A stretch of DNA of 37,367 bases from Vulcanimicrobiota bacterium (GTDB lineage: Bacteria; Vulcanimicrobiota; Vulcanimicrobiia; Vulcanimicrobiales; Vulcanimicrobiaceae). Location: positions 1 through 37,367 of the forward strand of contig DAHUXY010000089.1 of the NCBI GenBank assembly GCA_027315505.1. The letters run 5' to 3'. This document shows, piece by piece, positions 19,097-20,873 of this stretch. Numbering within the stretch: position 1 is the stretch's first letter; each line of letters begins with the position of its first letter. A program made the position numbers and the translations under genes. The notes beneath the pieces were generated by a model that was given only the letters and a program-made list of their open reading frames with translations, did no database searches and was not told where the DNA came from.

Positions 19097-19522
19097 ATGT
19101 CCGACGAGCAGTACCCATCCGGCCTCGCTGAGCGCGTGCGCGTCTTAGCGCAGGCCTTTGTTGAGAGCGACCTCCTCCGCGTTCGGGTCGAGCGCAAGCA
19201 CGAGGCGATCGAACTCGCGCGCAATCACGTCCCGGCCGAACGGCTCCCGGAGCTTGCGCCGGAGCTCGAAGCCGCATCGGCTGCCGCGCCGCTCAAACTC
19301 GATATCGTGCGGGCGGACCTCGTTGGGATCTTTCATTTGGGCCGGCCGCAACCGTTCGAGGGCGAACGTCTCGAAGGCGACCGCGAACTTGCGTATATCG
19401 AAGCCCTTGGCATCCGCAACCCGGTGCGCAGCCGTGGTGCCGGTCGCGTTGCCGCCATCCGTGCGGCCGACGGCGACCCGGTGGAGTACGGCCAGCCGCT
19501 CTTCGAACTCGACCGAGGATAA
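19097..19522 (+). CDS. AccB/BCCP-like protein lacking the biotinylation lysine
   Basis: BCCP-like N-terminus ([26 protein letters not shown]) and biotinyl-like domain [16 protein letters not shown]...[48 protein letters not shown] position reads EALGI. Directly upstream of accC. Confidence 0.8.
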
Positions 19523-19526
19523 ACCG

Positions 19527-20873
19527 ATTTTCAAAAAAGTATTGATCGCCAATCGCGGCGAGATCGCTCTCCGTATCAATCGCGCCTGCCAGGAACTCGG
19601 GGTGCGTACGGTTGCGGTATTCTCCGAAGCCGATCGGGGATCGCTGCACGTGCGGCAAGCCGACGAGGCATTCTGCGTCGGCCCGGGCCCCGTGGCCCGG
19701 TCGTATCTCAATATTCCCAACGTCATTTCGACGGCGCTGATCACCGGCTGCGACGCCGTTCATCCCGGCTACGGTTTCCTGGCCGAGAACGCTCGTTTCG
19801 CCGAGATCTGCGCCGATCACGGGCTCACGTTCATCGGTCCCAAGCCGAGCGTTATCGCCGCGATGGGCGATAAAGCGACGGCCAAACGCGTGATGCACGA
19901 CGCCGGCGTGGCGACTACGCCCGGCACCGATATCCTCGCTTCGATCGACGAAGCGCGCAAGGCGGCCAAGAAGATCGGCTACCCGGTGCTCCTCAAAGCC
20001 ACGGCCGGCGGCGGCGGCAAGGGGATGCGCACGGTCGAAAACGAGCACGACCTCGATCGGGCATTTTCGAGCGCGACGGCCGAGGCCGAAGCGAGTTTCA
20101 AAGACGGCCGGCTCTATATGGAAAAGCTCATCATCGATCCGCGCCACATCGAGGTTCAAGTGCTGGCCGATTCGTTCGGCAACGTGGTGCATCTGGGCGA
20201 ACGCGATTGTTCGGTGCAGAAGCCGTCGCACCAAAAACTCATCGAAGAGGCTCCGGCACCCAACCTTTCGCAGAAGGCGCGCAACGCGCTTCACGATATG
20301 GCGGTGCGCGCCTGCAAGCACGTCGGGTATAGCAATGCCGGCACGCTCGAATTCCTGGTGAGCGGCGATCAAGTCTTTTTCATGGAGATGAACACGCGCA
20401 TTCAAGTCGAGCATCCGGTTACGGAAATGGTCTACAGCATCGACTTGGTCAAAGAGCAGATTCGTATCGCGTCGGGCGAGACGCTGGGATACACGCAGCG
20501 CGACCTGGCGGCCCGCGGACACGCAATCGAGTGCCGTATCAACGCCGAGGATTCGTCTAATAACTTCGCGCCGCAGGCCGGGACCCTCGCGGACGTCGTA
20601 TTCCCCGGCGGCCCGGGGATCCGCGTGGATACGCACGTCTATGCAGGGGCGACCATTCCGCCCTACTACGATTCGATGCTCGCGAAAATCGTCGCGTTCG
20701 GCGAGACGCGCGACGCCGCGATCGCGCGTATGGAGCGGGCGTTGCGCGAAACGGTGGTCGACGGCGTGAACACCACCATCGGGCAGTGCCTGGAAATTTT
20801 GGCGCACCCGCGTTTTCGCGAGGGCCGTTACGATATCGGCTTCCTGCCCTCCCTGCTCAAGGCGCGGGTGTAG
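19527..20873 (+). CDS. accC: Acetyl-CoA carboxylase, biotin carboxylase subunit (apparent AUU start)
   Basis: [112 protein letters not shown]-like GAGG at 19515-19518. Confidence 0.95.

Follow-up and report, generated by a model that had tools for sequence, protein, structure and literature searches.

What a gene in the accB position does when its product has lost the lysine that would carry biotin is the question raised by the open reading frame directly upstream of accC in the window, a stretch of 37,367 nucleotides from a Vulcanimicrobiota genome (assembly GCA_027315505.1, contig DAHUXY010000089.1). The initial annotation had proposed that the biotinylated lysine of an AccB homologue was replaced here without a frameshift, and both points are borne out by the sequence. 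The frame starts with ATG, is free of stops and frameshifts throughout and reads EALGIR, which places Gly105 (codon GGC, 19409-19411) at the biotinyl-lysine position (Table 1). The Pfam profile Biotin_lipoyl matched the protein with 25.2 bits, over its cut-off of 22.1, and the NCBIfam BCCP profile TIGR00531 matched it weakly, with 34.7 bits under an equivalog cut-off of 115.2. The top phmmer match in the PDB was the E. coli BCCP (4hr7_B, E 1.5e-6), and by sequence and fold BCCP is the nearest known family.

Table 1. Features of the lysine-less gene and of the start of accC in the window.
Feature	Position	Strand	Basis
Lysine-less BCCP paralogue (BADC-like) ORF, 141 aa	19097..19522	+	Profile matches, AlphaFold2, Foldseek
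BCCP N-domain: N-terminal helix (residues 10-23) and beta-hairpin (residues 28-33/36-41)	19124..19219	+	DSSP on model
Variable low-confidence linker, residues 42-66, pLDDT <50 at 48-62	19220..19294	+	Model and homologue alignment
Biotinyl-domain fold, residues 67-139, thumb loop ~5 residues shorter	19295..19513	+	pLDDT mostly >90, Foldseek
Hairpin-tip motif E102-A-L-G105-I-R107 in place of E-A-M-K-M	19400..19417	+	Sequence
GAGGA resembling a Shine-Dalgarno sequence, in the terminal part of the lysine-less gene and 7 nt ahead of the accC ATT	19515..19519	+	Sequence
accC, biotin carboxylase; likely start ATT at the canonical Met position	19527..20873	+	TIGR00514, start analysis

The predicted structure of the protein agrees with this assignment. 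An AlphaFold2 model (m4399e2486e01) was obtained with a mean pLDDT of 80.9, from an input alignment made of true AccBs, which favours a BCCP fold in the model. Both the N-terminal helix and hairpin and the biotinyl-domain fold of AccB are present in this model, the biotinylatable lysine of the AMK(M/L) motif is absent, and Gly105 occupies the hairpin tip where the lysine is expected. The shorter thumb was measured against aligned outer-class BCCP-like proteins (alignments A2 and A4). The best Foldseek match was the biotinyl domain of E. coli BCCP (1bdo, TM-score 0.81 by target length), and the top five included Arabidopsis BCCP1 (9a87) and 4hr7. A lipoyl-like domain unrelated to BCCP was considered as a candidate and rejected, as phmmer and Foldseek both point to BCCP.

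The search for a second BCCP and for a biotin ligase gave a positive answer on both counts. A canonical AccB with an EAMKL site is encoded on contig C167 of the window genome, passes TIGR00531 with 118.7 bits and is flanked by ORFs that were read as hisS-like and gmhA-like. BirA is encoded on C5 and passes TIGR00121, accA lies on C175 with an accD-like candidate ORF next to it, and EAMKM is found in two acyl-CoA carboxylase alpha chains. Because the genome encodes AccB with EAMKL, BirA, AccA and a putative AccD, the loss of biotin dependence that had been suggested for this locus is unsupported for the cell as a whole, and a loss of biotin use was rejected in view of true AccB and BirA. Two marks of a BADC are found in the window genome: the protein is a BCCP homologue without the AMKL motif, and its gene coexists with true BCCP, BC, CT (accA and the accD candidate) and biotin ligase. 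A second carboxyltransferase-like pair was seen at G000:C121:25300-26486 (L335, L338), besides the accA/accD-like pair on C175. True AccB with intact EAMK is encoded elsewhere in 56 of 60 relatives, a count that includes the window genome. BCCPs that do not adjoin accC carried EAMK in 15 of 16 cases in the first locus set from the same genomes, the exception (L219) being a lysine-less copy truncated by the end of its contig; all 30 BCCPs fetched from these genomes in the search for true AccB had EAMK, and none lay beside accC.

A homologue or paralogue of the window protein was matched in 59 of 60 relatives, and the profile matched in 129 of 136 genomes of Vulcanimicrobiota/Eremiobacterota. 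Loci were fetched for most of the matching genomes. None of the relatives had EAMKM at the accC-adjacent locus: the BCCP-like ORF directly upstream of accC was without canonical AMK in 118 of 118 fetched loci, a few genomes being counted as two overlapping loci, so that slightly fewer than 118 genomes are represented. A recurrence of this extent goes far beyond chance. The residue at the lysine site was G in 94 of these loci, K in 9, R in 8, N in 5 and S in 2. Stop-to-start gaps between the lysine-less gene and accC were mostly -4 to about 50 nt. The gene is also carried by a single-contig relative (G008, 3,508,363 bp; site ETLGIRNP), which is taken as the cultured Vulcanimicrobium alpinum WC8-2. 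In two genomes (G021, G094) the lysine-less gene is present and cut by a contig edge, in G090 accC lies at the contig end, and G057 and G065 have N-type forms of the gene. The lysine-less gene was not found in G003, G032, G076 and G127, where accC matches reached merely about 47-52% identity, and the locus is taken as missing from these assemblies. Neither a BCCP-like nor an accC match was obtained in seven phylum genomes (G060-G062, G130-G133), and these lineages may do without the usual acetyl-CoA carboxylase.

Eight of the nine lysine-bearing loci read EALK[LV] and belong to family f3; the ninth reads ESMKF and belongs to the outer class. As far as their sequence goes, these nine forms may be biotinylated. 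Close relatives of the EALK[LV] members read EALR, and both residues occur within one genus, g42 (K in L050 and L054, R in L049), an alternation which argues that the lysine is unnecessary in family f3. The members of this family (L044, L047-L050, L052-L059, L062) combine EALK or EALR with an added C-terminal tail that mostly ends in PPR[LIM].

An alignment of homologues showed that the AMK-free site is a consistent character and that the tip which replaces it is strongly conserved. Among 81 distinct homologues from the family and order, E102 and G105 were invariant and R107 was found in 80; the mean entropy was 0.62 bits at the hairpin tip versus 1.46 bits elsewhere in the domain. Pairwise dN/dS values for ten pairs of lysine-less homologues were 0.07-0.30, and the gene is under purifying selection. 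In a tree of 73 rows, all lysine-less forms fell on one side of a single branch, which had a support of 79/96 and occurred in 76% of bootstrap trees; the phylum's true AccBs formed a single clade (support 92/97). This topology fits one ancient duplication after which the accC-adjacent copy would have lost its lysine, with moderate support and several long outer branches in the tree.

Outside the phylum, the lysine was found in all 140 BCCPs examined. A broad genome scan for AccB in other phyla gave lysine in 80 of 80, a result that is biased because one of the two motifs in its search pattern admitted N or K alone at the site. With the window protein as query, for which N-type forms may miss the E-value limit, lysine was present in 30 of the best 30 matches in the Gastranaerophilales/cyanobacterial phylum and likewise in 30 of the best 30 in the Pelotomaculum phylum; no lysine-less copy was seen among the best matches from the 246 genomes of the cyanobacterial phylum. 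Confinement of the lysine-less form to Vulcanimicrobiota/Eremiobacterota is not proven by these searches, and Chloroflexota and Armatimonadota are among the phyla outside them. A bacterial non-biotinylated BCCP was not found in an open-access collection of papers, most subscription journals being outside its scope.

The closest parallel is described in plants. BADC proteins are 25-30% identical to BCCP, have no AMKL motif and promote BC-BCCP assembly in reconstitution, although an inhibitory model also exists, and they are described as unique to plants (PMC11926652). Going by that description, the window protein has in common with Arabidopsis BADC1-3 that it is a BCCP paralogue without AMK, in a heteromeric acetyl-CoA carboxylase system that also has true BCCP and BC (PMC11926652). 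Unlike plant BADC, it is bacterial, is encoded directly upstream of accC and has no plastid targeting. Since the best matches in the cyanobacterial phylum carry the lysine, the bacterial form is probably independent in origin. With E. coli AccB the protein shares the fold, the architecture of N-domain, linker and biotinyl domain and the place before accC; it differs from bacterial AccB in the missing lysine, the shortened thumb, the TIGR00531 score already given and the presence of a separate true AccB in the genome. In BC1 of Chloroflexus aurantiacus, the BC tetramer is made by a barrel of interlocking BCCP hairpins (PMC11077971). The N-domain hairpin of the window protein may act on the model of this barrel, although the Chloroflexus BCCP forms one chain with BC and carries biotin at Lys553. 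Some bacterial acyl-CoA carboxylases contain non-catalytic 'glue' subunits that aid assembly, a role that by description resembles the one proposed here; in contrast to the window protein, they are not described as BCCP paralogues in that source (PMC11926652).

The gene is best explained, with a probability of roughly 70%, as encoding a BCCP paralogue without catalytic function or biotin, which serves AccC as a dedicated partner and co-assembles with AccC and true AccB as an analogue of BADC. The predicted structure retains the N-domain helix and hairpin that bridge BC dimers in another carboxylase, and by this analogy contacts of the N-domain with AccC and with further BCCP chains would be expected. 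With Gly105 in place of the lysine, BirA would be unable to biotinylate the protein at the hairpin tip, and CO2 would not be carried there. The protein most likely joins AccC and the separately encoded AccB and sets the arrangement of BC and BCCP in their sub-complex or the ratio between them, a role that would resemble the one reported for BADC in plant plastids. The BADC-like subunit of the initial annotation stands as regards BCCP homology and fold, phylum-wide and conserved loss of AMK, accC adjacency, purifying selection and co-occurrence with true AccB and BirA, all established by computation; for its biochemical core, we infer that the protein carries no biotin in vivo, binds AccC and AccB and acts in assembly.

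The main sub-alternative is an inhibitory decoy, in which the protein would take AccC sites from biotinylated AccB and thereby lower acetyl-CoA carboxylase activity. The same anatomy would serve this purpose, co-expression with accC would allow its dosage to titrate AccB, and the first model proposed for plant BADC was inhibitory (PMC11926652). The two roles are inseparable by sequence alone; a near-universal single gene that is fixed and tightly spaced to accC rather resembles a constitutive subunit, and the decoy is considered unlikely. Reuse of the BCCP scaffold for a role outside acetyl-CoA carboxylase would account for a conserved EALGIR tip that departs from the BCCP motif, as if a new surface had been selected. 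The gene nevertheless adjoins accC in all 118 loci in which both genes are assembled, and the seven genomes free of any match to it are likewise without an accC match, which makes such moonlighting very improbable.

The idea that the protein still works as a carrier, with biotin or some other group attached at an unusual site on another residue, could draw on the nine loci that do have a lysine. Gly, Arg, Asn or Ser at the site in all other loci, the exchange of K and R within one genus and the canonical AccB in the same genomes speak against it and render it highly unlikely. Sequencing error or local decay of accB would be conceivable in a fragmented draft of 291 contigs such as the window genome. 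This explanation was rejected and is given next to no weight, as the loss of AMK is shared by the 118 loci of relatives from many families, among them the single-contig 3.5-Mb genome, and the gene is under purifying selection.

The surrounding genes are only partly those expected from the initial annotation, which had described a Firmicutes-like order of accB, accC, nusB and xseA. Upstream of the lysine-less gene lie folP, folB and folK, and accC is followed by nusB, a bifunctional penicillin-binding protein, xseA and tlyA. Because the penicillin-binding protein is located between nusB and xseA, the resemblance is merely approximate. The accC gene itself matches TIGR00514 above the threshold (653.8 bits, cut-off 626.5), and it is separated from the lysine-less gene by 4 nt.

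Analysis of the accC start revealed ATT or ATC at the canonical Met position in 27 of 117 accC loci from Vulcanimicrobiota/Eremiobacterota, including the window (ATT, 19527-19529). In five of the loci, which represent four genomes (L160, L162, L177, L024/L171), the frame is closed by a stop 2-4 codons upstream of this position, and ATG, GTG, TTG and CTG are all absent between the stop and the ANRGE of accC. This arrangement forces a non-canonical start unless translation begins inside the conserved core. In 70 of 70 control loci from other phyla, an NTG codon was found near the Met position. On these counts, accC of the Vulcanimicrobiota clade probably starts with AUU or AUC. A more far-reaching version of the preferred reading, in which acetyl-CoA carboxylase would require the protein as a fifth subunit, independently evolved in the phylum and building the AccC-AccB complex, with stop-start-coupled AUU/AUC translation of accC in one family, is put forward tentatively and is rather doubtful. 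If the assembly reading holds, BCCP subunits without biotin have evolved at least twice, and a simpler bacterial counterpart of BADC would offer a tractable system for the debate on whether BADC acts as glue or brake. The presumed cultured carrier, Vulcanimicrobium alpinum WC8-2, makes co-assembly testable. For any BCCP-like gene next to accC, an annotation as AccB can be in error. AUU and AUC starts also occur in infC, where they are repressed by IF3 (PMC5472188).
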